Origin: Opitutus sp.
GTDB taxonomy: Bacteria > Verrucomicrobiota > Verrucomicrobiia > Opitutales > Opitutaceae
Length of the DNA: 64,000 bases
Direction of reading: 5' to 3'
Assembly (NCBI GenBank): GCA_024998815.1
Contig: JACEUQ010000002.1
Location: forward strand, 194,501-258,500
In this document: one piece after another, positions 2,215 through 30,393 of the stretch
Layout of the letters: every line of letters starts with the position of its first letter
Numbering within the stretch: the first letter of the stretch is position 1
Program-made: the position numbers and the translations under genes
Notes under the pieces: model-generated
What the model was told of the DNA's origin: nothing
The model's input: the letters and a program-made list of their open reading frames with translations, nothing else
Database searches by the model: none

Positions 2215-2451
2215 CGCTGTGCATCCGCCAAGCGTCCCGCCGGTTCAATCTCCACCCATTCGCACCCCTCATATCCCCAGCCGGACAGGGAAGAAAACCC
2301 ACCCACGGAAGAAGAGTATTACTCTTTTTAAGGGGAAGAAGATCCACCGAAGAAGAAGTGCATTCCTAACCGCCAGAAATAGACGCTTTCCCGCTCGCCG
2401 CTCACATATTATACACTTTCGAACTCTTCCATAGTTTGCCTCTGATTCCCC

Positions 2452-2811
2452 ATGCCTTTACTTTCCCCTGCCTTTACCGTCCTGGATGATCCCGCCAGCA
2501 GCTTCGCTGCTGAATCCATTTTCGCCACCGCGCTGAGCGATGAGGGACTGATCTCAGCTTACAGTTTGCTTGGCGATTTGCTGGGGCACCTCGGCGACCA
2601 ACCGGAGTTGGAGGGGCCGGTCAAGGGCCTGCAAGTCTGCCTAGACACGTTGCTCAATGAAGCACGCCCGTTCGACGATGCCTCGGTCAAGCACCTCACT
2701 GCGCTGGCCGCTTGGTTGCCCGGCGCGTTGGTGGCGGTGCGCGATGGCAATAAGCCCGCGCCGCTGGCCGTGAAGTGTCGAATAACCCAGACGCACTCAC
2801 TAACCGCATGA
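2452..2811 (+). CDS. Hypothetical protein, 119 aa, overlapping the autotransporter start
   Basis: I do not recognise this protein. It is mildly acidic, with leucine-rich amphipathic segments around residues 35-75, and has no signal peptide or membrane segment. It begins 45 bases inside the IS21 flank, so its own promoter may have been replaced. Its TGA overlaps the ATG of the autotransporter gene as ATGA, which would allow translational coupling. The last dozen residues have a different character from the rest, so the gene could also be a truncated remnant whose frame happens to end there. Confidence 0.4.
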   Translation: MPLLSPAFTVLDDPASSFAAESIFATALSDEGLISAYSLLGDLLGHLGDQPELEGPVKGLQVCLDTLLNEARPFDDASVKHLTALAAWLPGALVAVRDGNKPAPLAVKCRITQTHSLTA

Positions 2812-5800
2812 TCACCTTTAACTTCCGAACCGCTAAGCTTATCTCCGCAATCGCCGCCATCCCGCTCCTGGCCGGCACATCCACGCAAGCCGCCAACGGC
2901 ACATGGACGCAGTTGACCAGCGGCGGCCTTTGGAGCAATACGGTAAACTGGTCCGGCGGCACCGTGGCCGACGGCAGCGGATTCACTGCCGACTTCAGCA
3001 CGCTGAACATCACCAGCGCCAACATCGTCCACCTGGACGGAGCGCGCACGCTGTCCGCGCTCACGTTCGCCGATACGACCACTCCCTTCGTCGGTTGGAC
3101 CCTGGATAACAACGGCAGCGCAGCAAATATTCTCACCCTGGCAGGCACCACGCCCTCGATCACGGTGGGAACGAGTTCCACAGCAGAGATCAGCGCCGAA
3201 ATTGCCGGCTCCACTAACTGGAGTAAAGCGGGCACCGGCACGCTGACCCTCTCCGGCAGCAACACCTTCAGCGGCAATCTCACGTTTTCGACCGGGAGGT
3301 TGGTGGTCAGCAACAACAATGCTTTGGGCACGACAGGCGGCACCAACAGCGTCACCAACGGCGCCGCGCTGGTGCTGGGCAACGGAGTCACCGTCACCGG
3401 GGAAACGGTGACGATCAACGGTTCTGGCACGGATTTCAACGGGGCGTTGACCGTGGACGCGAATACCTCGGCGACTTGGAACGGCACGGTGATCATGAGC
3501 AGCGTGGGAGCAAGCCCCCGCGTCGGCGCGGGTGATAACGGGACGCTGACCCTCAGTGGAGTGATCCAGGGAAGCGGCCAGTCTCTGCAGGTCCGCGGTA
3601 ATAACGCCGCCGCCACGGTGATCGTTTCCGCAGCAAGCGGAAATAACAGCTTCAGCGGAAACACGCAGGTCGTGCAGGGCACCCTGAAGCTCGGCGCGGC
3701 AAACACTCTGCCAACGGGGACGACGCTCGACGTGGATTCTTCAAATGCATCTGTTGACGCTATCTTCGACCTGAACGGCTTTAACCAGACCGTGGCCGGC
3801 CTGCAGCGGACCGGCGCAGGCTCTGGGACCGGCGGCAGTTTCGTGACCAACAGCGGCAGCGCGGCCACCCTTACGATCAACCAAACCGCCAGCACGACCT
3901 ACAGCGGGAACATCACCGGCAGCCTGGCCCTGACGAAGTCCGGCACGGGCACGCTCACTCTCACCGGCACCAACAGCAACAGCGGAGCGACGATCATCAG
4001 CGGGGGCACTTTGGCGATCGGCACGGGCGGCCAGTTATCCACCAGCAGCGCGATCACCAACAACGCCAACCTGACCGCCAACAGCACCGGCAGCCTGACC
4101 CAGGGCACCCACTTCAGTGGAGCGGCGATCACGGGCAACGGCTCTTTCACCCAGCTCGGCTCGGGCACGACGACCCTCAATACGGCCAACACCTTCTCGG
4201 GCGTCACCCTCATCAGCGCCGGAAAGATCGCCCTCGGTCATACGCTGGCCCTTCAAAACAGCGCCTACGACACCACCGGCTCCATCGGTGCGATCGGGCT
4301 CGACGTCACCGGATTCACCGCCCCCACGCTCGGCGGCTTGCGGGGTAGCGTGGCCCTGGCGACGGCGATCACGGGATACTCGGCGGTGACCAACCTGATC
4401 CTCAATCCCCAAACCGGCGCGTCGAACAGCTACTCCGGCGTCATCGCCAATGGCGCGGCCGGCCTGACGGTCACGAAAACGGGCGCGGGCACGCAGGTCC
4501 TCTCCGGAAACAACACCTTCACCGGTCAATTGACCGTGGCGGAAGGCGCGATCTCGGTGAGCACGGTCAACAACTCGGGAGCGGATGGCGTGCTGGGCAA
4601 CAGCACCTCCTCGGTGATCCTCGGCAGCACCGGCAAGAGCGGCGCGCTGAGCTTTAATACCAACGTCGTTACAGCCACCAAGAAGTTCACCATGGCTGCC
4701 GGTGGCACTGGCATTTTTGACGTCACAAGCGGCCAGTTGGCCGTGGGACTGATCGACGGTTCCGGCGCCTTAAGCAAAACCGGAGCGGGAAATTTGGTGT
4801 TAGGCAACGCCAACACCTTCAGCGGCGGGGCCACACTGGGTGGCAGTGGTTTTGTGGCCGTCAACGTAGATTCCGCCGGCCCTGCTGGTGCTCCGACCAG
4901 CGGCGCCCTAGGCACGGGCACAGTCAATCTCGCCGGCGCGCAGATTCGGGCGGGAACCACAGCTTCGCGGACAATCGGCAACAACGTCACGATCTCCGCC
5001 GACACGCCCTTTGCCACCATCGCCAGCGAGAAATCGCTGACTTTCACCGGCACCATCCTTTTGAGCGGTGGCAACCACACCCTGAACGTTCTAACCGGCT
5101 CTACCGTGGGAACGGAAAAGCTGACCTTCTCCGGAGCGATCGGTGACGGCGGCAACGCCCTGGGCATCACCAAGACAGGGGCCGGCAACCTAGTTCTCTC
5201 CGGTAACAACACCTACACCGGCGCGACCACGGTCAGCGCGGGTTCCTTGGCAATCGGTAGCGCCGGCAGCCTTGCCAGCGGCAACGCGCTCACAGTGGGT
5301 GCAAGCGGCTTAGCCACCTTCGCCAACGCGGGCCAAACCCTCGGCGCAGTCAGCAACGCCAACACGACGACCAACGCACTTAACTTCAGTGCTTCGACCG
5401 GCACGGTGACGCTCGCCAGCCTGAGCGGCGCAGGTAACACGACCTTCGGCAGCAACGGCATCGTTACCGGCGACATCTCGGCTGGCACGGTGACCTCGGT
5501 CGGCAACCTCACCGCCAACATCTCCGGTGGTACAACCACGGTGGGTGGCGTGGCGACGATCGGCACGCTCTCCGGCGGCACCGCCAACTTGAACGGCGCC
5601 ACCAGTGCCATCACGACGCTCAACGGCGGTACGGTTAACTTGGGTTCCGGCACCGCGCTCACCGTGAGTGGCGGCACCAGTGCCGGAGTGATCACTGGCA
5701 CCGGCAGCAGCCTCACCAAAACCAGTTCCGGCACCCTCACGCTCACCGGGACCAACACGTACACTGGCACGACCACGGTTTCAGCCGGTACGCTTGCGCT

Positions 5801-6686
5801 TAACAACCCGGGCACTACGGCGCTCGTCAACACCTCGGCGGTGGTGATCGCCAGCGGTGCCTCGGTTTCACTCGGCGCGGCCAATCAAATCAACGCCGCC
5901 GCCAGCCTCACGCTCAATGGAGGCACCATGGACCTAGGCGTCTTTAGCCAAACCCTCGGCACACTCGATCTCAATGCCTCCTCCGCGCTCAGCCTGAGTG
6001 GCTCGGCGGCCCTGGTGTTTGCCAACAGTTCGGCGCTCGATTGGAACTCCGCAACGCTTTCGGTAAGCCATTTCGAGGTCGGCACCAACTCCCTGCGCTT
6101 TGGCACCACCAGTGGCGGCCTGACTGCCACCCAGTTGGGCCTTTTTCGGTTTGTCGAATTCGGCAACGTCGCGGCGCGCATCGATGACGACGGCTTTATC
6201 GTCCCGTTGTCCACGAACTACCTCAACTCCGGCGGCACCGACCTGGTCATCGCCACGCCGATCACCGGCACCACCACGGTTAATCAATCAGGCACGGGAT
6301 CGATCACCCTGACCGGCTTAAACACCTCTAGCGGGACGGCCACGGTCACTGCTGGCACCTTGGTGATCGGCACCGCTGCCGGTGGCCACTGGGCGGGTAA
6401 CGTCACCGTCAGCGGCACCGGCACCCTTAAAGGCCGCGGCGACATTGGCGGGGCTGTGATCGTCGACGCCGACGGCACTTACAGCCCGGGCAACTCCCCC
6501 GCGATCCAGCACGTCGGCTCGCTTACGGTAAATACCGGCGGCTCCGTCACGATCGAACTCGATGGCGCCACCGCCGGCACCGGAGCCGGGTTTCACGATC
6601 AGGTCATCTCAGCGGGCGCGGTCACTCTCACCGGCGGCACTTTAATCGGACAGACGATTTTCACCGGTTCGAGTGTGCCGGCCTAA
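2808..6686 (+). pseudogene. Autotransporter passenger domain (PATR beta-strand repeats), ends at in-frame TAA
   Basis: Passenger half of a type V autotransporter. I start it at ATG 2808, where a signal peptide is obvious: basic start, hydrophobic core to about residue 25, then a T-Q-A-A cleavage region. The passenger is a beta-helix built from at least eight autotransporter-associated repeats of the form LxGxNTYTGxTTVSxGTL, and is rich in Gly, Thr, Ser and Asn. Near the end it reaches the usual junction sequence (SPGNSP followed by an ELDG segment). The reading frame then meets TAA at 6684-6686 and continues in the same frame as the barrel domain. Without readthrough the passenger has no outer-membrane anchor. 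I read it as one gene broken by a point nonsense mutation. Confidence 0.8.
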
Positions 6687-8066
6687 GTGCCGACCCTCGG
6701 CGCCGTCCACGCCGTGATCACCGGCAGCACGGTGACAGGCAAATTCGACGACTACACGTTCGCCCCCGGCGACAATGCCGCCGGCATCACCTGGCTGCCC
6801 GAATACACCGCCACCGCCGTTAACCTCTACGCCGTCCCGTCCAACTACGCGACCGCAGTGCCCGGCCTCAACGCCAACCAAACCCAAGTCGGCGCGGCGC
6901 TCCAATCCCTGCGTAACTCCGGCCTCAAGTTTGAGCTCGACCAGCGCACCACCATGGACGACCGCGCCACCCTGTTTAACGGCCTGAAAACCCAAACCGC
7001 CGCCGGCCTGCGCACGGCCTACGACCAGCTCACCCCGGAAAAACTCACCGCCTTGGCTGCTACCACCTTCCAGTCCGCCTCGATCCTCAATTCCAGCCTG
7101 CAACAGCGCAGTGCGGAATTGCGCCGCTACGGGTCGGCGTCGATCAGCCTTAACGGCGTGGCCACCCCCGCCGCCGCGGAAGATTACAGCGTGCAAACGG
7201 TCATTGAAGACGGGGTGAGTTATCAAATCGCCAAGGCTAAGCCGAAAAAACGCTTCGGTTATTTTGCCTCGGCTACCGGTGCCTTTGCCGCAGTCGATGG
7301 TTCCTCAGACCGCCTCGGCTCTTTTTCGCAGACGGGGGCGGCCACCGCCGGAGTCGATTACGCGCTCAACCCCAACCAGTCGGTCGGGCTGGTGGTCAGC
7401 CAGGCGCTGGCCGACACGGATTTCTCCTCCAATAGCGGCACTGCCCGCACCACGACGAGCCGGGTTGGGGTGTTTCACGATTACCATAACGCGGGCTTCT
7501 TTGTGAATACCTCGGTGTCGGCCGGGCTTTCGGCCTATGACAGTAAGCGTAAAATCGCCTTTTTAAATCAAACCGCCAGCGGTGAAACGCAGGGCTTCAG
7601 TTACGGCGGCCAGTTGGCCACCGGCTATGATTTTAAGGTGGGCGGTTTTATTGTGGGACCGACTGCCTCGGTGGCCTATGACCATGCGCACATCAACGGC
7701 TTCGAGGAAACCGGCTCCGCCGCCGATTTGCGCGTTAGGCGTCAGAATGCGGATTCATTCATCACGAAGTTCGGGGTTCATGTGAGCCGACCCTTTGTTG
7801 CCAATAAAATCGGGTGGATTCCCGATTTGAGTCTGAGCGCAAGTCGCCAGTCGTTTAACCCCAATCGTATCACCGCGCGCCTGGCCGCCGGTGGAGAAGC
7901 GTTCAGGGTTAACCCGCAGGCTGGAGGCAGTGAGTATATTAACCCCGGCGCGAGTTTGTCGGCGCTGTTGCCCAACGGTTGGACGGTGCGCTTGAGCTAC
8001 GACGCGATCCTCAATCCGCAATACTCCGAACACCGGGTGAACTTGAGCCTTAACGCAGGGTTTTAG
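6687..8066 (+). pseudogene. Autotransporter beta-barrel domain, separated from its passenger by a stop codon
   Basis: C-terminal translocator of the autotransporter begun at 2808, in the same frame directly after TAA 6684-6686. The first 180 residues are the linker and helical region; roughly residues 185-459 form the alternating pattern of a 12-stranded outer-membrane barrel, and the protein ends in phenylalanine (LNAGF), the standard signal for the BAM assembly machinery. A GTG follows the TAA immediately, but a product starting there would lack a signal peptide and could not be exported. So this is half of a broken gene, unless the stop is read through or is a sequencing error. Confidence 0.8.
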
Positions 8067-8081
8067 GCCAGCGCATGCGGT

Positions 8082-8249
8082 GTGGCGCTGAAAGCGAACG
8101 GGCCGGCGCCGGCATCAAGGGTGATCTTCGTGCCTGAATCTGCGTTTATGGACCCTTATATTCTGCTTAAAAAGACCAATGCGGTTGTTTTAAGTGAATT
8201 TAAAGTGCGGGATTTTGAAGGTGAAATTGTCTGTTTTCGTCTTCCTTGA
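8082..8249 (+). other. Possible small ORF or gene remnant, 55 codons, after the autotransporter
   Basis: An open frame starting at a GTG and ending at TGA 8247-8249 encodes a peptide with ordinary-looking composition (PESAFMDPY, LSEFKVRDF). It lies in the frame of the autotransporter after its natural stop, but the barrel already ends in the canonical phenylalanine, so it is not part of that protein. I cannot tell a small gene from the 3' end of a lost gene. The rest of 8067-8298 shows nothing else I can support. Confidence 0.25.
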
Positions 8250-8298
8250 TATGCAGGCGGTTGCTAGCCGCATCCTCGTTAAACGATACGCGAAGCTA

Positions 8299-10207
8299 GA
8301 GCCTCCTCGAAAAGCCTTTCGCAACGGGCGTATTCCCGCCCCGGCCGGCCACTGGGGGCGCAAACAGCCCTGAACGAACTCGGTTTACGTGTTCACGAAG
8401 GGGCGGCGGCCTAAAAACAGCCCCGGCCCCATCACCAAGGTCGCTTTTCCAACGGCGAAGTCCACGGCGGTTCGCTCCGGGGCTTTTGCACCGAACTAAT
8501 TGAACCGATTTGGGTTAGCCGCGACGAGCGAAGCGACTCAGGCCGCCAAGGGCAGCGGCTTTTCCTGAGACTTCCTCGCGCGCACCAAAATCATCCGGTC
8601 AAAGTTGTGCGCGAGGATCTTCAGGGTCAGTTCGCTGCGCACCGCCGCCAACCCGCGACGACCCGGCCGGCCGAACCCGTGGTTGAACTTGAGCGTAAAC
8701 ATCAGCGACTCGATCGCGCTGCGCTCGGCGCGAAGCGTGATATAATCCTGGTGGTTCCACAGTTCCTCGCCGAGCAAGGCGCGCCCCTTGGCGCCGGAGA
8801 TGCTCACCTTGGCCACCTTCAGCTCGTATGCCTGCGCCAGCCCTTCGGCGCTGGAGTAGCCGTCGTCGACGTTCGCGCTCGCCGGCACCAGGCCCGTGTT
8901 GGCGATATTCTGGATCAGCAGGGGCACCAGTTGCTTGCAATCAGCCACGTTGCCCGCGTCGAGAATCAGCGCGGTGACAAAACCGCCGCGGCTGCGGGCC
9001 AATTGCGGCTTGTAGCCAATCACCGGTTCCCGCCCGCCTTTTTCAATAAAAGCAGCACTGCGATCGGCCAGGCTGAGGACCCTTTCCCTCGACTTGGTCT
9101 TCACCCCATCATGCACCCGCGCAATGCTTTGCTGGATCGTCGTAATCACCGCGACCACGTCCCCGTGGATGCAGTCCAGTAGGTCTTCCGCGATCCGGCG
9201 CTTGGAGGGCCGCAGCTTGGACAGTTTAACATTTGCTTCGGCCTCTGCGGCTTCTACTTGGGTGAGCAACTTGCCGCCCAACTTGCAGGCGATTTGGTAA
9301 AACTGGTCGTAGAGCAGCCGGAGTTTTTGGGCTCGGCGGGGACCACCACCCAGCAGGGCGATGGCGCGGGCGCTCTTTCGCAACTCCTCCAGCCAGTGGT
9401 CTTTGAAGCCATCCTGCAGCGAGTTAAGCCCGACCTGGTCGAGCTTGCCGCCCATGCGGTAGGCTCGCTCAAAGAGGCGGTAAATGATACCGGAGTCTGT
9501 TGGCCAGCAACTGGATGCCTTGATCGCCGTGCTGTCCAGGGTGATATCGGTAAACGAATCGAGCCCTTCGGCCAAAATATCGGCCAATTGGGCCCGGTGG
9601 ATCAGGGCGAGAGTACTCTCACTCAGGCGATTTATCAGGGGGCCAACGGTATTAGGTGCAGGCAGCGTGTACCCCAAATCATCGAGCAAGGTGCGCAACG
9701 ATGCCGATTCAAGCAGCACCATCCGGGGGCAGGCACTGTATTGCGACCCCAAGTAACCGGTGGCCATGGCCGTGATAAAAACCACAACAGCGGGGGTGCG
9801 CGGACGCCCTGCGGCGAGGAACTCGGCTTGCGTTTTTTCCGCCGTGCCTGACGCCGGCACGGCGAACAACGCCTCGGTCTGCGCCAGTTCGAACTCCCGG
9901 TCCTTCCGCCGTTCGCGCTTTTCCGCCATGGCGTGGGCGTCGAGATCGGCGGTCATGGCCACTTCGATTTCGGGGTGGGACCGCCAAAAGCGCTTCAATT
10001 CCAATAAAAAATCACCAAAATCACTGCGCGCCGGGGTGGAAAAGAAGTCGCCGGAGGAATAAACGATCGATTCGTTACTTGATAATTTAACGCCGCTACT
10101 TATTTTGTTTCCTGTTTTCATGCAGTATAATACGGCACTTTTACAGTAAACTTAAATCACATAAGTTGTTTTTAATAAAAAAACCAAAAGCCTTTTCGAG
10201 GAGGCTC
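8299..10207 (-). mobile_element. ISNCY-like insertion sequence, complete
   Basis: Both ends carry the inverted repeat GAGCCTCCTCGAAAAG, flanked by CTA on the left and TAG on the right, consistent with insertion at a CTAG or TA target. One minus-strand transposase gene (8538-10121) fills most of it. The 240 bases between the transposase stop and the left end hold no gene I can support. The terminal GAGCCT is shared with the elements at 35081-36873 and 38962-40768, whose transposases have a similar layout. Family assignment is tentative. Confidence 0.8.
8538..10121 (-). CDS. DDE transposase, ISNCY-like, 527 aa
   Basis: Full-length transposase of the surrounding element. A first acidic catalytic position is likely in the segment TLDSTAIK (about residue 195), a second near VDDGYSS (about 420) and the glutamate in ERSAIESL (about 465), giving a D-D-E order. 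The N-terminal 130 residues are charged and probably bind the ends. The ATG at 10121 is preceded by an AT-rich segment containing TATTAT, a candidate -10 box. Acts in the cytoplasm on its own IS. The frame is intact, so the element may still be active. Confidence 0.75.
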   Translation of the reverse strand: MKTGNKISSGVKLSSNESIVYSSGDFFSTPARSDFGDFLLELKRFWRSHPEIEVAMTADLDAHAMAEKRERRKDREFELAQTEALFAVPASGTAEKTQAEFLAAGRPRTPAVVVFITAMATGYLGSQYSACPRMVLLESASLRTLLDDLGYTLPAPNTVGPLINRLSESTLALIHRAQLADILAEGLDSFTDITLDSTAIKASSCWPTDSGIIYRLFERAYRMGGKLDQVGLNSLQDGFKDHWLEELRKSARAIALLGGGPRRAQKLRLLYDQFYQIACKLGGKLLTQVEAAEAEANVKLSKLRPSKRRIAEDLLDCIHGDVVAVITTIQQSIARVHDGVKTKSRERVLSLADRSAAFIEKGGREPVIGYKPQLARSRGGFVTALILDAGNVADCKQLVPLLIQNIANTGLVPASANVDDGYSSAEGLAQAYELKVAKVSISGAKGRALLGEELWNHQDYITLRAERSAIESLMFTLKFNHGFGRPGRRGLAAVRSELTLKILAHNFDRMILVRARKSQEKPLPLAA

Positions 10208-10431
10208 TAGCCCTGTGCCACTAAGAAACCGGAAGAACCCAGCAGATGCGGATCGACAAGTTCCGGCATGAGCTTCTCCAGCGAGGATATACAAGGCTGC
10301 GATATCAGCGTTAGCATCCCCACCACCACCCTTTCCGGCGTCCATATCCTCCTACGCTTGAAACGGATGTCGAGGGTGCGGAAGTGTTCCACCAAAACGG
10401 TAAGCAGGGCGCGTGTGTGTGTAGGGGACAT
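10207..10431 (-). pseudogene. N-terminal fragment of an unidentified protein, cut by the IS
   Basis: Seventy-four residues open at ATG 10431 and end at a TAG formed by the IS junction. The sequence is arginine-rich with a segment RRRIWTPERVVVGMLTL that resembles the N-terminus of some IS4-type transposases, but I cannot assign it firmly. No continuation is recognisable across the IS at 8100-8298, so the rest of the gene is lost or decayed. The 200 bases up to 10634 contain nothing I recognise. Confidence 0.35.
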
Positions 10432-10634
10432 ACAGTCGCCGACCGTCTCCCATGCCTAGGGTTCACGACCATCGCATTGGCCATAAAAAATCAGGCCTTA
10501 CGATGTGTTGCGGGCTTAACCGAGGGCCATTGTGGGTAGCCCCCCCCTAGGCAATGAGATCTGGAAATTCCGACAAGGCCCAGAACCGCACTCACCGACT
10601 GTAAATCATTTTTTACAATGACTTAGCAAAGATA

Positions 10635-20938: not shown

Positions 20939-22777
20939 ATGAAAACCATTCTTCTGGCCGCGCTTTGGACCATCTGCTTCTTTTCAACGTCCCGGGGGTT
21001 TGCGCAGGAACCCCCGTCGGCCGTGGTGCCGGAAGAACCGGCGGAAGCGGCGTTTGTTTTATCACGCCGTGAGGAGGCGCCAGCCTTTCCCGCGAGCCAG
21101 AAACGCACCCTCAAACCCGGCTTTAGCAGCGTGGGCACGTGGACCGCGTCCGGCACATTCAAAACCCCGCTTGGCAATTCGCGCTGGAGCAACCAAGCGG
21201 GCATCGCCCGATGGAATCCCTTGCTGACCACCCCGGGCCTCTACCGCGTGTCGGCCTACAAGATCGTCAGTGGTAAAAAAGACGATCCCGAGATTGCTTT
21301 CACGATCAACCACTCCGGCAAGAAATCATCCGCTTCGCTGGACTCGACGCAGGGTGCCAGCGAATGGGTTGTTCTCGGAGAATACGACTTCTCGGCCGAC
21401 CGGGATGAATTCGTCGAGTATGTGCCCTCCGGCAGCGCGCAGGGAAACATCTACACCCGCATTTCCGATGTGCGCTTCGACAGGATCGATGCCTCGGGAA
21501 AAATTGAGGACTCGTTGATCGTCACGGTGGAACCCTGGTTGCCGCGTTATCTGAATGTGGCAGGCATCAAGGAACATCCTGCTCGCCAGGAGATCACCAC
21601 CCTGGTGCGCAAGGGATTTGCCACGCTTCTGCCGGATGGCACATTCGCGCCGGATGAGCCGATCAGCTCCAGCGATTTCCTCGCATGGGCGATGGCCACA
21701 GCGTCTGACGAGAAGCCAAGCACTCAAGACAAAACGCTCGCCAAGGCCAAGGAACTGGGAATTCCACAGGCCGAGGAGTTACTGAAAAGCAATGGCATCA
21801 CCGGCAAACAGGCCGCCAAACTTCTGGCGCAAATCGCGCAGGCCAAGGGCCGGTCATTGGCGGCACGTCACGGCGCGCCTGCGACTGCCTCCGAGGTTGA
21901 GATATGCGAGTCAATAGGCATCCTACCAAAAGCCCCTCCGCAGAATCAGGGCTTTTGGAGCCGCTTGAAAATGCGTCTGGGATTCGTCGGCGAGGCTGCC
22001 GAAAAGAATCTCACCCGCGCCGAGGCGGCGGTCGCGCTGCGCCGGTTCCTCCATCTTGTGCTGGCACCCAATCCCCCGCCCGGTGGCGATTGGCAATTGG
22101 TGTTTGAGGATCGCTTCGACAAGCCTGCGGTGGACGAATCGGTCTGGACGATCGACAACTCCGTGCGCGTGCCCAACCGCCTCGGCCGCTGGCGGGAAAA
22201 TGTGGAGGTCAAGGACGGTCATATTCGCCTGCTCAACAAGGTGGAATCCCGCAATGGCTGCGTCTGGTCGAGCGGCAACCTCCAGACGAAAGGCGAATGG
22301 CAATACGGTTACTTCGAGGCCTCGTATCGCTACGCCCGCGCTGTCGGCATCAACAATGCCTTCTGGGGTTTTTCCAAAAACAGTGACAACCCCCAGGTGG
22401 AGCTCAATCCCAACGAAGGATGGTATCCAGACATCATCAACGCGCACTTTTACATCCACCACAAGAAGGATAGAAAAGTCACGCACCTCACCAATGGCAC
22501 TGCGGACGGAACGCTCCTCGGTTACCGCGCAGGGGAGAATCTGGCCGATGACTTCCATGTGTATGGCATGGAGTGGAACGAGAAGGAACTCATCTTCTAC
22601 TTTGACGGGCGCGAGATTCGCCGCCTGCCCAACATCGACTGCCACCGCCCGATCGCGGTCTGGTTTTCCACCTACATCGGCGACTGGTGCGGCGGCAAGG
22701 CCACCCGCGCGGTGGACGGCACGGCCATGGAGGTCGATTGGGTGCGGGTCTGGCAGAAAAAACCGGAACGCCGTTAA
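20939..22777 (+). CDS. Secreted multidomain protein with C-terminal GH16-like domain; altered catalytic motif
   Basis: About 612 residues from ATG 20939, where a signal peptide begins (MKTILLAALW to GFAQ). Residues 30-185 look like a galactose-binding-type beta-sandwich, about 210-250 resemble an S-layer-homology repeat, and about 375-605 are GH16-like (WQLVFEDRFD at the start, AMEVDWVRVWQKKP at the end). The GH16 active-site motif E-x-D-x-x-E is here E488-L-N490-P-N-E493: both glutamates remain but the central aspartate is asparagine. That may lower activity or mean a binding role. Substrate would be a beta-linked polysaccharide. The gene is last in the GRE cluster. Confidence 0.75.
   Translation: MKTILLAALWTICFFSTSRGFAQEPPSAVVPEEPAEAAFVLSRREEAPAFPASQKRTLKPGFSSVGTWTASGTFKTPLGNSRWSNQAGIARWNPLLTTPGLYRVSAYKIVSGKKDDPEIAFTINHSGKKSSASLDSTQGASEWVVLGEYDFSADRDEFVEYVPSGSAQGNIYTRISDVRFDRIDASGKIEDSLIVTVEPWLPRYLNVAGIKEHPARQEITTLVRKGFATLLPDGTFAPDEPISSSDFLAWAMATASDEKPSTQDKTLAKAKELGIPQAEELLKSNGITGKQAAKLLAQIAQAKGRSLAARHGAPATASEVEICESIGILPKAPPQNQGFWSRLKMRLGFVGEAAEKNLTRAEAAVALRRFLHLVLAPNPPPGGDWQLVFEDRFDKPAVDESVWTIDNSVRVPNRLGRWRENVEVKDGHIRLLNKVESRNGCVWSSGNLQTKGEWQYGYFEASYRYARAVGINNAFWGFSKNSDNPQVELNPNEGWYPDIINAHFYIHHKKDRKVTHLTNGTADGTLLGYRAGENLADDFHVYGMEWNEKELIFYFDGREIRRLPNIDCHRPIAVWFSTYIGDWCGGKATRAVDGTAMEVDWVRVWQKKPERR
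21926..21958. repeat. Perfect 10-bp inverted repeat inside the GH16-like gene
   Basis: CCAAAAGCCC and GGGCTTTTGG flank a 13-base loop, within codons of the linker before the GH16 domain. It has terminator-like shape but no T-run outside the stem. Probably incidental to the coding sequence. Confidence 0.5.
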
Positions 22778-22831
22778 AGGTAGGCGAAGGATTGTTAGAA
22801 TTCCCATTCTTACGGACTGGTGATTCACGAA

Positions 22832-23438
22832 ATGGTCACTATCACGGGAGGCGAGCCGATGGCGCACCCGAAATTCACCCTTTCGTTGCTGCGAAAATGC
22901 CGGGATGCGGGCAACCACACCGCCTTGGACTCCACAGGATTTCCAAGGCGGAAGCTTTGCGAAAGGACCCTGGCCGGAATGGCACTAAGTTAGGCACGAC
23001 CGCCCCAACGGGGCTCTCTACCACAGCCTAGGGCAACCCCTAGGAATCATGGGGTAAAGTGCACAAGCCCTGAAGGGGCGATTAAACCAGGAGCGACGAT
23101 AACACCCCTTAACTTAGCGCCATTCGACCCTGGCCGTCACTAACCTCTATCTGTTCGATTATACCCATTACATAGCTATTCGGGCCAGACGCAAAGACGC
23201 TAAGCCGGGAAGTATGAGTAACCCATTTCAAGTCAATGCTTTCTTTGCGCCTCTGCGACCGAAGGTCCTTCTGCGCTGCACGATGATTCCCGACCTCAAC
23301 GAACAGGACGAACCCCTAGTGGCCATCGCGGAGATGGAACGCCGTGATCCGTCTCTGGCCGTTATCGAGACCATTTCTTGGCATATGATGGGGAAATCGA
23401 AAAACGCTTGGCTCGAACGGCCAGTCGCTCGGGGTTGA
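22832..23438 (+). pseudogene. Decayed partial copy of the GRE activase
   Basis: Translation shows pieces that align in order with the activase at 19123-20028: VTITGGEPMAHPKFTLSLL, then the CRDAG region and a TLAVTNLYLFDY piece, then RCTMIPDLNEQDEP and AIAEMERRDPSLA, then a WHMMGKSK piece. The iron-sulphur N-terminus is absent. The copy is interrupted by a 149-bp MITE-like element (22977-23125) and by about 80 bases of a sequence of the type common in bacterial spacers (acgcaaagacgc and ctttgcgcctctgcg). Like the intact copy it is followed by a secreted-family gene, so both were duplicated as one unit. Confidence 0.85.
22977..23125. mobile_element. MITE-like element, 149 bp, with 11-bp target duplication
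   Basis: Ends are imperfect inverted repeats GAATGGCACTAAGTTAGG and, read from the other side, GAATGGCGCTAAGTTAAGG. The 11 bases GACCCTGGCCG occur immediately before (22966-22976) and after (23126-23136) and read as a single copy in the intact activase gene context. The interior has three short hairpins (GCCCC-AAC-GGGGC, CCTAGGG-CAA-CCCCTAGG, CCC-TGAA-GGG) and no ORF. It is therefore a non-autonomous element mobilised in trans. No second copy is in the window. Confidence 0.8.
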
Positions 23439-23509
23439 CAGCAACTTGCGAATCCGCAATTTTTGAGACGTTTCACATGAGGGAAATCTTGTAACCACGT
23501 TCAAGGATT

Positions 23510-23534
23510 TGATGTATTTCTAAATAATACATCA
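23510..23534. promoter_or_regulatory. Palindrome upstream of a secreted-family gene
   Basis: TGATGTATT and AATACATCA are perfect 9-bp arms around a 7-base AT-rich centre, 27 bases before the ATG at 23561. There is no T-run, so an operator or an mRNA leader hairpin is more likely than a terminator. It is absent upstream of the paralogue at 20134. Confidence 0.4.
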
Positions 23535-23560
23535 GGGAGATTTTTGGAATCTCCAACATT

Positions 23561-24361
23561 ATGAAATCTAAATTTACAGGTCTTTACACTTTTTTTTTAG
23601 CAGGGATGACGGCTTCGGCTTCAGTTGTGGTTCTAACAAATCCTAAACCGATCGAAGGCATCAACGCGATCGATCCCAAGGGGCTTATCGTGCAGGAACT
23701 TGTGCCCAATAATGCCGTGAGCAAGGCGGAAATCATCGCCCTTCCGACATTCCGCTCGGTCCAGGTTTTTGGTGCGTCCGGAGAATTCTTTATGTCGCGA
23801 CGGAATATCATCAGCTTTACTCAGGGGAATGACATGGTTCCCGATGTCGAGCTCACCTTTGAAGGATCGGATACCTCCCCGGCGAACGGCGCAGCGATAT
23901 TCAATTCGAATTTCACAAGTTCGGACGGCGTAGCGATCCGCCTAGAGGCCACGAACAGCGATATACCCAAATCCAAGTCGATGACTGCGGTTCTGAAGTT
24001 TGGAAACTACGACACAAAATCCAAAACTTTTACTCCCGCTGGCAAATCCTCAGGGCTAGGAGCGACCGCAGTGGCCTTCACATTGACCGGCTTAGGCAAT
24101 CGTAACTACATGTTAGATTCGATAGTTGTAAAATTCAAGGACTGGAATGGGTTAATTTTAGAGACCCAGTCGCTGACAAAACTTAACATTCCGAACGACG
24201 CTAAGTCGCGCTCCGCATACTTTGCTTACAAGAGCACCCAGAAGCTCATCGTAATAGTCGATATCAAATTGACCACAAAGGACATGGTATATGCTGCCAC
24301 GCCATTGCTTGGCCTCGATGATCTGGGCTTCGCTTTTTTAAAACCACCTCTGCACCATTGA
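23561..24361 (+). CDS. Secreted protein, third member of the PEP-CTERM-related family, no anchor
   Basis: 266 residues with a signal peptide (MKSKFTGLYTFFLAGMTASAS). Very similar along its length to the protein at 20134-20913 (INAIDPKG, FRSVQVFGASG, DMVPDVELTF, AFTLTGLGNRNYMLDSI, LLGLDDLGFA). The last eight residues after GFA are unrelated and probably come from readthrough into the sequence beyond a duplication endpoint. It has no PEP-CTERM tail. It follows the decayed activase copy just as its paralogue follows the intact activase. A palindrome at 23510-23534 may regulate it. Function unknown. Confidence 0.75.
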   Translation: MKSKFTGLYTFFLAGMTASASVVVLTNPKPIEGINAIDPKGLIVQELVPNNAVSKAEIIALPTFRSVQVFGASGEFFMSRRNIISFTQGNDMVPDVELTFEGSDTSPANGAAIFNSNFTSSDGVAIRLEATNSDIPKSKSMTAVLKFGNYDTKSKTFTPAGKSSGLGATAVAFTLTGLGNRNYMLDSIVVKFKDWNGLILETQSLTKLNIPNDAKSRSAYFAYKSTQKLIVIVDIKLTTKDMVYAATPLLGLDDLGFAFLKPPLHH

Positions 24362-24458
24362 CGGCATCAAGCCTTGCGGTGAAACCGAGCGCACCGACTC
24401 CTTCGGCCCGGTGACGATCGTCAGCGCCAACGAACTCCCACCGGGGACTTTCAGCTAA
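24342..24458 (+). pseudogene. C-terminal remnant of an unidentified gene
   Basis: A frame open from 24342 to TAA 24456-24458, with no start codon of its own, reads GIKPCGETERTD and then FGPVTIVSANELPPGTFS, which looks like a genuine protein end. It lies directly upstream of the Verru_Chthon cassette gene, so it may be the end of another cassette member cut off by the upstream duplication. Assignment is a guess. Confidence 0.3.
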
Positions 24459-24480
24459 AAGCGTTTTCTTACCCCTACCC

Positions 24481-27400
24481 ATGCTTCGTCCTACCCACAT
24501 GCAGTACCCCCAAAGCCTAAGTTCGCGTCGGGGATTCGCGCTGCTCATAACTATTGAGCTGATAGCGCTACTCGTGATACTCGTACTAGGTATGGCCTCC
24601 TTTGTCCGCGTCGAGGTCCAACTCGCCGCCAACACCCAGCAAGTCGAAGTCGCGCGCCAAAACGCCCTCTTCGCCCTCAACCTCGCCCTCGGAGAACTCC
24701 AGCGCACCGCCGGACCCGATCAGCGTACCACCGCCCCGGCCGCCCGCCTTGACACCAACCCCGCCACTCCCCCCATCGAAGGCGTATTCAGTGCGAATTG
24801 GACGGGCGTCTGGGGTCGCACTGCACCCAGCGCGACTAATTTCAACGCCCCTTCCACCATCACCCAGCCGCGATTACTTCAGTGGTTAGTCAGTGGAAAT
24901 ACCTCCAAAAGTCCGCTCATCGCCTCAGTCGCCACAGCCGACTTCGGACGCATCACTACGCCGTCGGTGGATGCCACCCCGGACTTTCAACCCACCCAGG
25001 CCATCACCGGGCTCGACTCGTCTACCACCGCCCTCAGCTCCCTCCATTCCACCGCCGGCACGAGAATTAACAACCAACCCGCCGCGCTGCTCGTAGGCCC
25101 CAAAACCACGGACTTTTCCTCCACCTCTGCAGCTCAAGCCAATGCCGTTGTGGCGCCTTTGGTCCCCATCACTGCCCCCGCCGGCTCCGTACCCGGCCTA
25201 GATCCCGCCGCTCCCCCCCCCATCATCGGTCGTTTCGCCTGGTGGGTAGGCGACGAAGCCGTCAAAGCTCGCATCAACCTCGTGGATGAATACAACGCTG
25301 CCACGGTCGGCTCGTTGCAGGACCGGCTGCGCGCCCAAACCGCCCAACGCGTTGGCATCGAACTTGTCGATGACGACACCGATCCGCTCAACGCCTCGCT
25401 CATGCCCTCGGTTTATCCAACCAACGCTGGCGACCTCAGCAAAGTTCTCGAACTTAACCAGTTTCCCTTCTCCAGTGCAGATCCCGTCGCACAGTCCACG
25501 CTCTCCGGCGTGCGCAAACTGCGCTTTCACGATCTTACCACTACCAGCACCGGCGTGCTGGCCGACACCCTGCGCGGTGGCCTGCGCAAGGATCTTACTG
25601 CTGCCTTCGCCGGCCCTGCCCTGCCAGTCGCCTTGACCGGTACCGGTGCGCCCGTCTTCACCGCTGCTGATGCCGGCGCGGCGGCTGGCAAACCCGACGG
25701 CCCCACTTGGGATTCAATTCGCGACTATTACCGCCTCAACCCAAGCGGCAGTGCCACCTTCCCCGTGCAGACCAGCACCCCGACCACCGCCGGTGTAGCC
25801 CCGATTATGGTCGGCGCCCAAATCGCCGTCTCCGCAGGCGTGGCCCCCGTCGGTGGCGTGCCGCGCATCCACTACCATATCGTGCCCTCGGTTGCGCTCT
25901 GGAACCCTTACAATGTCACCCTCGCCGCCAGTGTTTATTCTTTCAATGTAACCCCAGGTTCCGGTTGTTTTTTGGTCCTCCAAGTCAACCAAGGTGGCAC
26001 CCTCACCCCCGCCAACACCAATGCTGCATCCACCGACGGATTCATCATTTTCCAACCCGGTGGTGCGATTCTCAACTTCACCCTTCAGTCTCGAGCGCTC
26101 GCCCCCGGTGAAACCGTTGTTTATTCGCTGGCTGCCAACCAATCACTGAGCAGCAATCGAACCCCCGGAGTTGGCTTCACCCTCACACCCGATGTAATCA
26201 ACCCCTACTTCGCGGCTACCTATATCGACCCCAAGGTCACCGTGCCGGCTGGCACCCTGACCAACCTGCGTCTCACGGTTTATGGCAACGGAGGCCTCGG
26301 GGTTGATCCTAGCGGTTCGGCCGTGGGGCTAATGAAACTAGGTATGAGAAAAGATAGTTCAGCCGGCTCTGTGCTGGGCCGCTCGCAAGGCCTGCGAGGA
26401 CGCGTAAGTATGGCCAGTACATTTACCCTGCCAGACCATGGCGGCAGTGTGAGTGGCGCCCCGCAGTTTGGCTGGAAATACGCCCTGCGGATGGGTGACC
26501 AGTCGGGCACCACCATCATCCGTTCACGCTGGCTAGCCGATCTAAATCCACGCTCACCCCGTTCTAGTACTTCGCCGTCGGACATCACGGTGAGTGGCGA
26601 CTGGCATAACAACCCCAGCTTCCATTCGTGGATACCCTCGTTGGTGAACCCCTTTGCTTTCGGACTCACACCGGTCGCGTCCGGCTGGCGGGTAAATGAC
26701 GTTGCACCGCAGAACGCTTGGTTGTTCACCATCCCGACCACCAGCGACGACTTTGCCGCCCGCATCACCTCCTTGGGCGAACTGCACTCCGCCCCTTGGT
26801 ATCGCAACGATCCCAATAACGCATTAGGCGGCTCCGACACCATCAGCAACTACCAGCCCGCCTTCCCCCTTGGCAACTCCCTCGCTCCCGCGAGGATTAG
26901 CGCTGCCACCATCAGTCGAACTTACACACCTGCACAGGCAGGGTCAGCACAGGACACCGTTTACGACCACTCCTTGCTGCTTAATCACGCACTCTGGGAC
27001 CGTTATTTTTTCAGCACAGTGAGCGCGACCACCCCGCCTGCCTTCCCCCTGCCCAATGGTCGTTTCTCCGCCTACTCCGCAGACGGTACTCCGCCAGCCA
27101 CTGCCGATCTGCGCGACTATGACCGCGCCGCCTCCCGACTCCTCGTTAAAGGCGCTTTCAACATCAACTCCACCTCCGTCGATGCCTGGGCCGCCTTACT
27201 CGGCAGCCTGCGCGATGTCCCCATTGCCGGTGCCACCCCCGTCGCCGGGCAGCGCACGCCCTATACCCGCTCGGCTACGCCGGCCACCGCCGTCTTCGAC
27301 CCATCCACCGACGATGCCTCCTCAATTACGGCCGTCGGCGGCTTCCGCGCCCTGACCGATGCCCAAATCCGCGATCTCTCCGAAAAAATAGTCGTCCAAG

Positions 27401-27990
27401 TAAAAACCCGTGGCCCCTTCCTGAGCCTTGCCCAGTTAATCAACCGCTCGCTGGTGACTGGCGATGTTCGCGGCCTCAAAGGTGCGCTCCAAGCCGCCAT
27501 CGACGCCTCCACGCTCAACGCCCGCCTCCTCCTGCCCGCCGGCATTGTGCAGCTCCCCCCATCTGCTCCGGCCAACCCCTACACCGATTTGCCGACGGGG
27601 TTTTCCGCTAGCGATCGCAAGTTTTTCCTTGGCCAATCAGGCGGCATCAATGACCGACAGTTTGGCTTCGGTGATACCGGGGCTGATACTACCGCCCATA
27701 GCACCCCCGGTTTTTTCACCCAGGCCGACCTCCTCCAATCCCTCGGAACCACCTTGCAGGCCCGCTCCGATACCTTCCGCATCCGCACCTATGGAGAAGT
27801 CGTCAACCCCGTCACCCAAACCACGACAGGCCGCGCCTGGTGCGAAGCCATCGTCCAGCGCCTCCCCGGCTACCTTAACCCCACCGCCGACGCCGCTTGG
27901 ACTTCCCCCCCCACCGACGTGACCAACCAGGTTTTTGGGCGTCGTTTTCAAGTCGTCTCTTTCCGCTGGCTTTCCCCGGAAGACATCTAA
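24481..27990 (+). CDS. Verru_Chthon cassette protein A
   Basis: 1169-residue protein with a prepilin-like N-terminus: RRGFALLITIELIALLVILVLG, a basic segment then a long hydrophobic helix (about residues 17-40), followed by the conserved stretch of small and charged residues (AANTQQVEVARQNALFALNLALGELQ). The size and layout match Verru_Chthon cassette protein A, so far known from Verrucomicrobia with large secreted-protein repertoires. The remainder is mostly beta-rich, with SGDWHNNPSF and a C-terminal RPY-like region with YGEVVNP near residue 1105. It probably resides in the envelope as part of a pseudopilin-like apparatus. The other cassette proteins (B-D) are not visible here apart from a possible remnant just upstream. 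Confidence 0.8.
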   Translation: MLRPTHMQYPQSLSSRRGFALLITIELIALLVILVLGMASFVRVEVQLAANTQQVEVARQNALFALNLALGELQRTAGPDQRTTAPAARLDTNPATPPIEGVFSANWTGVWGRTAPSATNFNAPSTITQPRLLQWLVSGNTSKSPLIASVATADFGRITTPSVDATPDFQPTQAITGLDSSTTALSSLHSTAGTRINNQPAALLVGPKTTDFSSTSAAQANAVVAPLVPITAPAGSVPGLDPAAPPPIIGRFAWWVGDEAVKARINLVDEYNAATVGSLQDRLRAQTAQRVGIELVDDDTDPLNASLMPSVYPTNAGDLSKVLELNQFPFSSADPVAQSTLSGVRKLRFHDLTTTSTGVLADTLRGGLRKDLTAAFAGPALPVALTGTGAPVFTAADAGAAAGKPDGPTWDSIRDYYRLNPSGSATFPVQTSTPTTAGVAPIMVGAQIAVSAGVAPVGGVPRIHYHIVPSVALWNPYNVTLAASVYSFNVTPGSGCFLVLQVNQGGTLTPANTNAASTDGFIIFQPGGAILNFTLQSRALAPGETVVYSLAANQSLSSNRTPGVGFTLTPDVINPYFAATYIDPKVTVPAGTLTNLRLTVYGNGGLGVDPSGSAVGLMKLGMRKDSSAGSVLGRSQGLRGRVSMASTFTLPDHGGSVSGAPQFGWKYALRMGDQSGTTIIRSRWLADLNPRSPRSSTSPSDITVSGDWHNNPSFHSWIPSLVNPFAFGLTPVASGWRVNDVAPQNAWLFTIPTTSDDFAARITSLGELHSAPWYRNDPNNALGGSDTISNYQPAFPLGNSLAPARISAATISRTYTPAQAGSAQDTVYDHSLLLNHALWDRYFFSTVSATTPPAFPLPNGRFSAYSADGTPPATADLRDYDRAASRLLVKGAFNINSTSVDAWAALLGSLRDVPIAGATPVAGQRTPYTRSATPATAVFDPSTDDASSITAVGGFRALTDAQIRDLSEKIVVQVKTRGPFLSLAQLINRSLVTGDVRGLKGALQAAIDASTLNARLLLPAGIVQLPPSAPANPYTDLPTGFSASDRKFFLGQSGGINDRQFGFGDTGADTTAHSTPGFFTQADLLQSLGTTLQARSDTFRIRTYGEVVNPVTQTTTGRAWCEAIVQRLPGYLNPTADAAWTSPPTDVTNQVFGRRFQVVSFRWLSPEDI

Positions 27991-28002
27991 AGCCCCCTCT
28001 CC

Positions 28003-28740
28003 ATGACTACCCCAAATTGTGTGCTAAGACTCTGCTTACTCTGCTTATTCGTGACCGGGCTCCTCGGCGCCACCGAGCCTCCATCCCGCACCATTGCCGT
28101 GACCGTGCGTTTCCTGCTCTGGTCCGAGCCCGTCGAGAGCACCGACACCCCGACCGACCTGGTTGCGCCGACCCTACCAATCTGGACCTTCCCTTCCGAG
28201 AAAAGCCGCTCGGTCAATGTCGAGCTGACTCCCGCCGTGGCCACAGCCCGCCAAAGTTACCTCGGTCCCGAACAACTCACCTTTTACCGCGAGACGCCCG
28301 CCGCCCGTAAGGGCGATTCGCCTCTACGCGAGCCGGTGGCTCGCACAACGCTTCCGCCTGACTGGTCCGCCGCGCTCTTCATAGTCACTCCCGCCCCCCC
28401 CGGTTCGACCCTGCCCTGGCGATTGTTTCCCGTGCGCGACGACGAGGAAAGCCTGCCATGGGAAAATCTCCGCATCCATAATCTAGGAAGCATACCAGTG
28501 TTTCTGCGCCTCGGCAGCCGCGAGATTACCTTATTGCCGGGCGAAGCCGTCCTATGGCCTTATTTACAGACTGCGATCGGTCAGCCTCTGCTACTCGCGG
28601 CTGAGATCGAAGATAAACCGAAACGCGTCTTCACCGGCTACTTGGCTACCCTGCCGGCCACCCGCAAACACGTTTTCCTCCGTCCCGCGCCCGGCACCCC
28701 CCACCTCTGGCGCACGGTCGAAATAGTCGAACTCCGGTAG
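28003..28740 (+). CDS. Exported protein of unknown function, next to Verru_Chthon protein A
   Basis: 245 residues with a clear signal peptide (CVLRLCLLCLFVTGLLGA). The mature part is proline-rich and beta-predicted, without a motif I recognise. It starts 12 bases after protein A, so the two are co-transcribed and probably act in the same envelope process. There is no lipoprotein box or C-terminal anchor. Confidence 0.65.
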   Translation: MTTPNCVLRLCLLCLFVTGLLGATEPPSRTIAVTVRFLLWSEPVESTDTPTDLVAPTLPIWTFPSEKSRSVNVELTPAVATARQSYLGPEQLTFYRETPAARKGDSPLREPVARTTLPPDWSAALFIVTPAPPGSTLPWRLFPVRDDEESLPWENLRIHNLGSIPVFLRLGSREITLLPGEAVLWPYLQTAIGQPLLLAAEIEDKPKRVFTGYLATLPATRKHVFLRPAPGTPHLWRTVEIVELR

Positions 28741-28755
28741 CCCCTCCTTTATAAG

Positions 28756-28827
28756 CCTAAATCCGGCATATGGCGGCCAAACAATCACCTGCGTGATTTT
28801 TGGCTAGTTTCTGCTGCCGGATTTAGG
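28756..28827. mobile_element. 72-bp internal-deletion derivative of the IS1380 element
   Basis: Begins CCTAAATCCGGCA and ends TGCCGGATTTAGG, the same terminal repeats as the IS1380 element at 53087-54827. Between them is the terminal ~57 bp of that IS's right end with only a few substitutions (contains CAAACAATCACC and GTGATTTTTGGC). So the transposase gene has been deleted and only the ends remain. No clear target duplication is visible. Confidence 0.75.
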
Positions 28828-28966
28828 TTTAGCCTGAACTCCAAAGTTGAGTTAGGAGTGGAATCGCGAAAGCGCATCAATGTAATCCCACTAGCTGCAT
28901 GATTTTAGACTTAAAATCAGCCATATTTGGGCATTTTATACCATTTCGCTTTCAAACGTATAATAA

Positions 28967-30009
28967 CTAGGAGGCAAGCCAAGGGAAGAAGGTGAGGCTA
29001 CGCAGGCGATTGGAGTCGGCCGCGAGTTCCTCCAGTGGGGTTTTTAGCCGAACTTCAACATCGGCAAGGGTGGCAAAGAGCTGGTTGGCAAAGCCCTTTT
29101 CCCGAGTTTCGTCCCAGATGTGTTCGCTCGGGTTGCATTCAGGGCAATAGGGAGGCAGGTGCCAGAGACGAAGTCGCTCAGGCACCGGCAAAGACCGCGC
29201 CTTGTGCCAGCCCGCGCCATCAAGTACGAGCAAGAGCGGCTCATCGGGCCAGGCACCGAGCAGGTCTAGCAGGAACAACGACATGGCGGCGGTGTTGCAT
29301 TTGGGGGAAAGTCGATGAACCAGTTCGCCGCGTTCGGGCGCGACAGCCGCAAAGGCATACAACGACTCCCGGACTACTTGGCGGGGCACCTTGGGGCGAA
29401 TGGGTGCAGGAGCCCAGCAATCGGTCAGATTGCTGATGCGTCCAAAACGTCCCTCGTCCATGAACACCACCAGCGGCGTGCGCCCTAGCCGGGTGCGCTC
29501 AGCGGCTACTTCCGCGGCGAAGTTTTTTTAAAAGCCGCCTCCGCTGCCGGATCCTTCTTGGGGTGACTGGGCCTGGGCGCGAGTTTACGCCAGCCAGCCT
29601 TGGCCAGCAGGCGATAGATGCTGGAGAGGGCGACCTTGTGCCCGACCAGCTCTTCGTAATCCCGCTTAAAGACATTGGCCACGACGATGCCTCCCTGGGC
29701 CGCGGCCGGAGCGTGCCGATCAAGCAGCGTCTTGGTCTGGTCAGCGGTTAACAACGTGCGCCTGCGTCCACCTCGCCCGGGCCGACCGATCACGCAGGCC
29801 TCACCCTCGCGCAAAAACCGGGAATGAAGCACACGCACCGAGTGCACGCTCAAACCGGTCAACTCGGCAATCTTGGTTGGGGGTAACGCATCTGAAGCTC
29901 GCATCAAAACCGCTTGGATGCGCCGTTGCTCTGCAATGTCCTTGGCTCGGCGAAGCAAGACCCTCATTCGCTCGGCGGTATCCCCCGGAAAATCTTTAGG
30001 TGGGCGCAT
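28967..30009 (-). CDS. IS630 transposase, two frames joined at a run of seven A
   Basis: N-terminal part (helix-turn-helix, from ATG 30009) reads to a TAG near 29506. The DDE part (MDEGRFGRIS with the first acidic residue, LVLDGAGWHKA with the second, NPSEHIWDETRE with the last) is in the -1 frame and ends at 28967. At the junction the coding strand reads TTT-AAAAAAA-C; moving back one base at the A-run yields a continuous protein. Some IS630 elements make their transposase by frameshifting or slippage, so this may be functional; a simple mutation is the alternative. I place the start at 30009, downstream of a terminator-like hairpin, although the frame opens at 30042. Confidence 0.65.
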
Positions 30010-30040
30010 AAAAAAGCCTTCTGGGGCTTCCCCAGAAGGC
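30010..30040 (-). terminator. Terminator-like hairpin just before the IS630 transposase start
   Basis: Read on the minus strand: GCCTTCTGGGG, a 3-base loop, CCCCAGAAGGC, then six T, ending directly at ATG 30009. An 11-bp perfect stem plus T-run has the form of an intrinsic terminator, and would block transcription entering from outside the IS. Confidence 0.6.
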
Positions 30041-30135
30041 ACGGTTATTATATTTTTGAAAGCGAAATGGTATTATGCGCATGGGACGTAAATTGCTGTT
30101 ATAGGGAGAGGATGTAGGCGCGGACCTTTAACTCG

Positions 30136-30393
30136 ATGGCCGAGGAGTCCGGGTGCAGGCAGATGGCTGCGGCGGCGGGGCTCTCGATCCCGCATTATAG
30201 CGACCTGTTCCGTCGGGCGACCGGGTATCCGCCCGTTGAGTACTTTTTACGGTTAAAAATCCAGCGCGCCTGCCAACTGCTCGACACCACCGAACTGCGG
30301 GTCAACGAGGTGGCGGCGGCCGTGGGCTGGACCGACCCGTTTTATTTCTCGCGGTTTTTCAGGAAAATCACTGGTCAATCGCCCCGTGTGTGA
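30136..30393 (+). pseudogene. AraC-family regulator remnant, DNA-binding domain only
   Basis: 85 residues covering both helix-turn-helix units of an AraC regulator (MAAAAGLSIPHYSDLFRRATG, then VNEVAAAVGWTDPFYFSRFFRKITGQSP). The N-terminal sensor is missing; an in-frame TAG lies at 30115 just upstream, and an IS630 sits 65 bases further out. At the C-terminus the IS21 element starts at 30389 and supplies the stop. The last few residues of the domain should lie beyond the other IS21 copy if the inversion proposed below took place. Confidence 0.75.

Follow-up and report, generated by a model that had tools for sequence, protein, structure and literature searches.

The inverted pair of IS21-family copies

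Two copies of an IS21-family insertion sequence (IS) lie in opposite orientation in a 64,000-nucleotide stretch of an Opitutus sp. genome (the window), and the segment of about 28 kb between them is considered here as a candidate inversion. The source genome (G000) comprises 4.24 Mb in three contigs (C1, C2 and C3), of which the window covers G000:C2:194501-258500. The two arms of the inverted repeat (1-2406 and 30389-32794) are 99% complementary and are separated by 27,982 nt, bearing out the opposite orientation given in the initial annotation. The complete element on the right (window 30389-33770) is 3,382 bp long, starting with TGTGAGCG and ending with CGCTCACA. The left copy is complete as well (G000:C2:193525-196906), with 976 bp of it outside the window. 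The features of the locus are as follows.

1-2406, minus strand: left IS21-family copy (accessory-gene end, accessory open reading frames (ORFs) and most of istA); another 976 bp fall outside the window, to its left
2407-2413, minus strand: TATAATA (read on the minus strand), half of a target duplication, inner flank of the left copy
2407-2770, no strand assigned: partial cheA-like paralog, comprising its first ~106 codons (2447-2770 aligned) and the DNA preceding them, half of the split site
2407-30388, no strand assigned: segment probably inverted between the two IS21 copies
30104-30388, plus strand: AraC-family regulator remnant, 60 bp of a divergent neighbour fused to the C-terminal ~75 codons (~225 bp)
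30382-30388, plus strand: CCCCGTG, left flank of the right copy, with no partner in the right flanks of the 40 examined copies
30389-33770, plus strand: right, complete IS21-family copy, 3,382 bp
30581-31138, plus strand: accessory ORF 1 of the element, 185 amino acids, without a Pfam match
31083-31442, plus strand: accessory ORF 2 of the element, 119 amino acids
31439-32905, plus strand: istA transposase (rve, PF00665; Mu-transpos_C_2, PF22483)
32872-33669, plus strand: istB ATP-binding protein (PF01695)
33771-33777, plus strand: TATAATA, flanking the right copy on its right, the counterpart of 2407-2413 in one target duplication
33771-33840, plus strand: homology, clearest over the first ~33 bases, to the DNA immediately preceding the cheA-like gene of G012 and the genome's own paralog

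Elements of the IS21 family have terminal inverted repeats with TG...CA ends and make target duplications of 4-8 bp. Here, istA (DDE/rve) is followed by istB, TGTGAGCG...CGCTCACA stands at both ends of 39 of the 40 copies in the genome (the 40th being interrupted near its left end), and duplications of 6-8 bp accompany 27 of the 40. The copy number is a lower bound: at least 40, from 40 of 120 candidates scored, with all 40 long matches examined. A check for interrupted copies covered 738,274 bases of G000, leaving ~3.5 Mb of the genome outside it, and returned the same 40 copies and some further pieces. Nine loci outside the window match the accessory ORFs. Eight of them (L133-L140) have the order accessory ORF 1, accessory ORF 2, istA and istB, and the ninth (L141) matches accessory ORF 1 alone, in two pieces. 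The metagenome-assembled genomes that carry the nine are titled Opitutus, Deltaproteobacteria, Desulfobacula, Desulfobacterales, Sulfuricella and Acidobacteria.

The divided TATAATA site

The right copy is flanked by CAATCGCCCCGTG and TATAATACGGCACG, with CCCCGTG on its left and TATAATA on its right. Thus, as first annotated, this complete copy carries no target duplication of its own. Read in element orientation, the accessory-gene-end flank of the left copy is AAAGTGTATAATA; its TATAATA agrees at 7/7 bp with the istB-end flank of the right copy, confirming the shared flank from which the inversion was originally proposed.

The DNA beyond these motifs belongs to a cheA-like gene. Window positions 2447-2770 align at 81% with an intact cheA-like gene of the same genome (C2:1648586-1648909), which encodes CheW, HATPase_c, H-kinase_dim and Hpt domains, and at 78% with the cheA-like ortholog in G012, a relative in the genus. 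In G012 and in the paralog, the sequence upstream of the start codon continues unbroken into TTATTACGGCACGTTCC.CTGCCAACTT.AGT, and TATAATACGGCACGTTGCCCCGCCCAATTAAGT is the sequence of the right copy's outer flank. The best place for this flank in the whole 18.9-kb G012 contig is the cheA-like site (score 32; next distinct place 23), as it is in an 18-kb stretch around the paralog (29; next 26). Only 1 in 1,000 shuffles reached the G012 score and none in 1,000 the paralog score. When 79 IS21 flanks were scored against both sites, the outer flank of the right copy ranked first, with a summed score of 61 (next 41), and when joined to the left copy flank it was first of the 40 right flanks at both (134 versus next 111, and 134 versus next 101).

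Since the site is unbroken in G012 and in the paralog, the two TATAATA flanks must, on this comparison of sequences, once have been contiguous: a single insertion site has been split, and the copies flanking it are inverted. The sequences that begin at 2407 and 33771 are at present 31 kb apart, on either side of the inverted pair, and reverting 2407-30388 restores an ordinary TATAATA-IS21-TATAATA insertion. The 324-bp cheA-like 5' fragment (2447-2770) stands at the head of an autotransporter-type gene (2775-8066) and may be a partial duplication.

The flanks of all 40 copies place this pair in a wider context. A self-matching duplication is present in 27 of them (7 bp in 19, 8 bp in five and 6 bp in three); in the other 13, the left and right flanks match over only 0-3 bp. 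The 39 uninterrupted copies are joined by L044, which is broken by an insertion of ~1.3 kb after its first 117 bp and is not truncated, having an intact GTGTATT duplication once its 117-bp left piece is joined. Duplications were lost in 10 of 23 more diverged copies versus 3 of the 17 others, a difference that is not significant (p = 0.10). Among the 13 copies without a duplication (156 ordered pairs), the left flank of one copy matches the right flank of another over at least 6 bp in five cases.

L009-/L045+: TATAATA (the left and right copies of the window)
L039+/L032+: CGCGGAC
L013+/L027-: GTAACG
L027-/L042-: GCCGAC
L028-/L016+: CTTTAC

Random 8-mers drawn from the same flanks (5,000 draws) gave a mean of 0.075 matches of at least 6 bp, and no draw reached the five observed; for matches of at least 7 bp, two were observed against a mean of 0.018, and one draw in 5,000 reached two. 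As a control, the 702 ordered pairs of the 27 duplication-bearing copies yielded no cross match. Between the two classes there was one, of 6 bp (L042-/L011-); one partner has its own intact duplication, and the match is taken as chance. The exchanged pairs that share a contig comprise three inverted pairs and one direct pair (L027/L042), and all five exchanges are one-sided, none being reciprocal. The 7-bp CGCGGAC is exchanged between L039 on C2 and L032 on C3, hinting either that C2 and C3 are one replicon or that DNA was exchanged.

Other pieces of the element were also found. Parts of an additional IS21 copy lie on two contigs, at C1:12468-13329 and C2:183433-185957; its break falls at element positions 858-862, and GGGCTTT stands at each outer end. 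One and the same short repeat, CCTAAATCCGGCAATAGAAA, occurs at either break, and thus a second repeated element seems to rearrange the genome too. Of two fragments also seen, one (C2:1433655) comprises 130 bp of the left end, and the other (C2:367925) is 60 bp long and end-like. The duplication-less copy L017 (C1:1364588-1367970) has an identical repeat of 303 bp on both sides, within ORFs that resemble one transposase, suggesting that two copies of one host IS, each carrying an IS21 insertion, recombined through these insertions.

The second junction and the origin of the probable inversion

Beyond the left copy, a dispersed-repeat tail, CTTCGGTATTTGG (CTTCGGT...), is followed by a group II intron. 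The initial annotation had predicted that the missing end of the AraC gene and a flank matching CCCCGTG would be found past the left istB end; neither is there, the flank being CTTCGGT. A simple reciprocal inversion is therefore rejected at this junction. The dispersed repeat tail reads ...GAAATCTGTGGTTAAAACTTCGGTATTTGG and occurs without IS21 at three other loci (L051, L015/L008 and L065). Even with the inversion reverted, the left copy is no clean insertion, since CCCCGTG and CTTCGGT would then stand at its two ends. Among the right flanks of the 40 copies none starts with CCCCGTG, and among their left flanks none ends with CTTCGGT; neither motif stands beside L044, the contig-split copy or the two fragments. 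These unmatched flanks require an additional event, either a deletion or an exchange with another IS21 copy, that preceded or followed the inversion; the lost partners could lie on interrupted copies beyond the checked 738 kb.

The junction IS21-CTTCGGTATTTGG-intron is present twice, at the left copy (L009) and at L035. The intron has a typical 5' exon, AACTTCGG..TT..G, and an 845-bp query including this exon matched over its whole length at 24 or more places in the genome (40 of 47 candidates scored). Its sister copy L049 gave matches to RF00029, RVT_1 and GIIM, showing the RNA domains and the reverse transcriptase/maturase ORF of a group II intron; it is identical to the left intron over 1,100 compared bases of the 3' part, and the 5' part differs only in the 13-nt exon. 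The 3' part of the left IS21 copy and the 13-nt exon equal those of L035, and the introns differ in lineage (L049-type at L009, L063-type at L035). Either there were separate intron entries at the two junctions, or a conversion tract ended between exon and intron body.

IS21 copies with clean 8-bp duplications are found inside copies of the group II intron at L009 (C2:189298-192679) and L026 (C1:1624213-1627594); these elements thus nest in each other. The intron copies at L035, L038/L052, L067 and L051 cease to match at one internal position (779-780 of the 3' part), as if another element reuses that spot. A second group II intron, unlike the one left of the window, lies at window positions 33880-34260, ~110-140 bp past the right copy.

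The copies themselves record extensive exchange. At 97 informative sites in 39 copies, 2,699 of 4,656 site pairs fail the four-gamete test, indicating heavy ectopic recombination among the IS21 copies, with at least 18 events among the 39. Variants are distributed as mosaics among the copies that differ from the consensus at more than five positions. Identity to the right copy is 97.8-99.1% for the other 39; the left copy differs from the right one at 39 of 3,382 positions, and L010, L011, L012 and L013 are closer to the right copy, with 32, 33, 34 and 38 differences, respectively. Within the left copy, element positions 1400-2000 match exactly only L012, L013, L016- and L032, positions 2530-2800 only L026, L035 and L036, and positions 2800-3382 only L035 and L036, so that its haplotype switches from L012/L032-like to L035/L036-like between positions 1863 and 2535. 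Its outer flank is also that of L035. A mosaic left copy joined to the L035 flank favours homologous recombination.

The AraC-family gene at the right end of the segment is, by comparison with G012, a deletion remnant and thus truncated on two counts. Its G012 counterpart is complete (316 amino acids; HTH_18 and AraC_binding) and stands beside a divergent gene of 1,119 amino acids, and the 1.43 kb between the two gene parts in G012 is gone from the window. The intact gene in G012 ends ...GQSPRAYRQVVKS, in a stretch 86% identical to the AraC piece of the window. Its downstream DNA matches G000 at C2:319780-320090 (40 of 282 candidates scored), which adjoins genes read as ExbD/TonB-like and lies away from all IS21 copies seen. 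A search with a 23-base tail pattern, allowing up to three mismatches, gave a single match (CCACGTTCCCATCGGCAGGTGGT, C1:1142524-1142546); with three mismatches it was rejected as the AraC tail, the power of this search being limited by the 86% identity between G012 and the window.

Several observations weigh against an inversion by recombination between the two copies. The AraC tail was not found beside any of the 40 IS21 copies, and CTTCGGT in place of CCCCGTG means that a reciprocal exchange of the second duplication is missing. The crossover point cannot be placed within the two copies. At a third and more distant homologous cheA-like site, in G011 (71% over the gene part), no upstream match was seen, and the best scores (23) fall elsewhere. 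The initial annotation had also pointed to gene order in relatives; the TATAATA site is indeed unbroken in G012, but no order shared across the breakpoints was seen in the 23 short loci of relatives compared. The AraC gene is intact in G012, but no order shared with the other flank was seen there. Across 56 genomes, window positions 28003-28740 match in three, namely G000 itself and, over 28 and 41 bases, G005 and G022. GHL6 orthologs occur in seven other genus members at 47-49%, and the PFL operon occurs in G003 at 45%; in the short loci compared, neither keeps an order that spans the breakpoints. GC skew, at -0.073 for the segment, -0.028 for the 95 kb leftward, -0.014 elsewhere in the window and -0.049 for the 100 kb rightward, is uninformative.

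We propose the following course of events. An IS21-family element would have inserted upstream of the partial cheA-like gene, duplicating TATAATA. Homologous recombination with an oppositely oriented copy ~28 kb away could then have inverted the intervening DNA, leaving TATAATA at the inner end of the left copy and at the outer end of the right copy. A further deletion, or an exchange with another IS21 copy, would have altered the second junction, either earlier or later. We regard the inversion as very probably real, though not as a simple reciprocal event, and an IS21-IS21 recombinational inversion of 2407-30388 with one further deletion or exchange is, in our view, its probable history. Thus, the inversion by recombination first proposed for these copies stands as far as the contiguity of the TATAATA site in G012 and in the paralog is concerned, and fails as a simple reciprocal exchange between two copies. 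We infer that a single inversion of 2407-30388 was the cause and that the agent was the host recombination system rather than the transposase.

A transposase could also have made the inversion, by intramolecular transposition into TATAATA via a tandem dimer, a replicative intermediate or the ends of two copies. Such an event puts half of a new duplication at each inverted copy while the old, non-matching outer flanks stay in place, and would give one matched and two unmatched flanks in a single step if two-copy ends or a duplication-less donor were involved. Intramolecular transposition yielding inversions is described for IS6 elements (PMC7986276), and transposition with hybrid ends for eukaryotic elements (PMC2775673). 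A single donor would leave sister copies, yet the two copies differ at 39 of 3,382 positions, four others are closer to the right copy, and the left copy resembles a chimera; gene conversion at a later stage could, however, mask a sister relationship. The one-sidedness of all five matched pairs speaks for a transposase in that simulated random inversions and deletions left no closed exchange cycle in only 191 of 4,000 cases overall; among those ending with five exchanged edges, as observed, the proportion was 106 of 431, and we regard one-sidedness as a hint at a one-sided mechanism, not as strong evidence. Weighing these points, we consider a transposase-made inversion unlikely. It is quite unlikely that the IS21 transposase pairs the ends of two different copies and that the five one-sided pairs are five such inversions, each dividing one new target duplication between two copies and leaving a one-sided scar; if this were true, the pairs would be transposase events, not recombinational inversions with separate deletions.

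An assembly error, or several unrelated rearrangements without a single 28-kb inversion, could be suspected given such similar copies, the 13 of 40 without a duplication, the junction IS21-CTTCGGTATTTGG-intron that recurs at L009 and L035, and at least one further copy split between C1 and C2. We judge this quite improbable, because the three-contig assembly resolves 39 uninterrupted copies, 27 of the 40 have matching duplications, so that most of those junctions are right, and the split site is restored in the fewest steps by one inversion. It is highly improbable that TATAATA matches by chance, after two independent insertions into AT-rich, promoter-like sites. The 7-mer is AT-only, and we take it to resemble a -10 box, which would count in favour of chance, yet the DNA beyond it is contiguous in G012 and in the paralog, and the null for 7-bp matches is 0.018 per set.

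Relation to known systems

Recombination between IS copies is a textbook mechanism and, in a copy-rich genome, ordinary IS biology. The case illustrates how past rearrangements can be recovered from a single genome by bookkeeping of target duplications over many IS copies, with an unbroken paralog serving to confirm a split insertion site. The rearrangement may also help to explain why gene order near the window is difficult to compare with relatives. Our literature search found nothing that combines Opitutaceae with IS21, and it found IS21, inversion, homologous recombination and target site duplication together only in an IS6 review; we make no fuller claim on the print record.

Inversion 2z3 of Drosophila buzzatii is attributed to ectopic recombination between two copies of Galileo, recognized by opposite orientation, exchanged duplications and chimeric copies (PMC2775673). 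The IS21 pair likewise has oppositely oriented copies bounding the segment, an exchanged first target duplication (TATAATA) and, for the TATAATA site, an unbroken counterpart in an insertion-free form. For 2z3, exchange of both duplications and chimerism of both copies are reported (PMC2775673), whereas here one duplication is exchanged and only the left copy is chimera-like. IS inversions in Wolbachia are ascribed to recombination between terminal inverted repeats (PMC3004938); as in our case, homologous recombination between repeated IS sequences reshuffles bacterial DNA, but there it joins the two ends of one IS, and here two separate IS21 copies 28 kb apart. IS6/IS26 elements give inversions or deletions by intramolecular replicative transposition, and IS21 is listed among the families with circular copy-out-paste-in intermediates (PMC7986276). 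Intramolecular events and inverted segments bounded by IS are common to IS6/IS26 and to the IS21 pair; the IS6/IS26 inversions are driven by the transposase, whereas the IS21 copies described here, with their 39 differences, are non-sisters.

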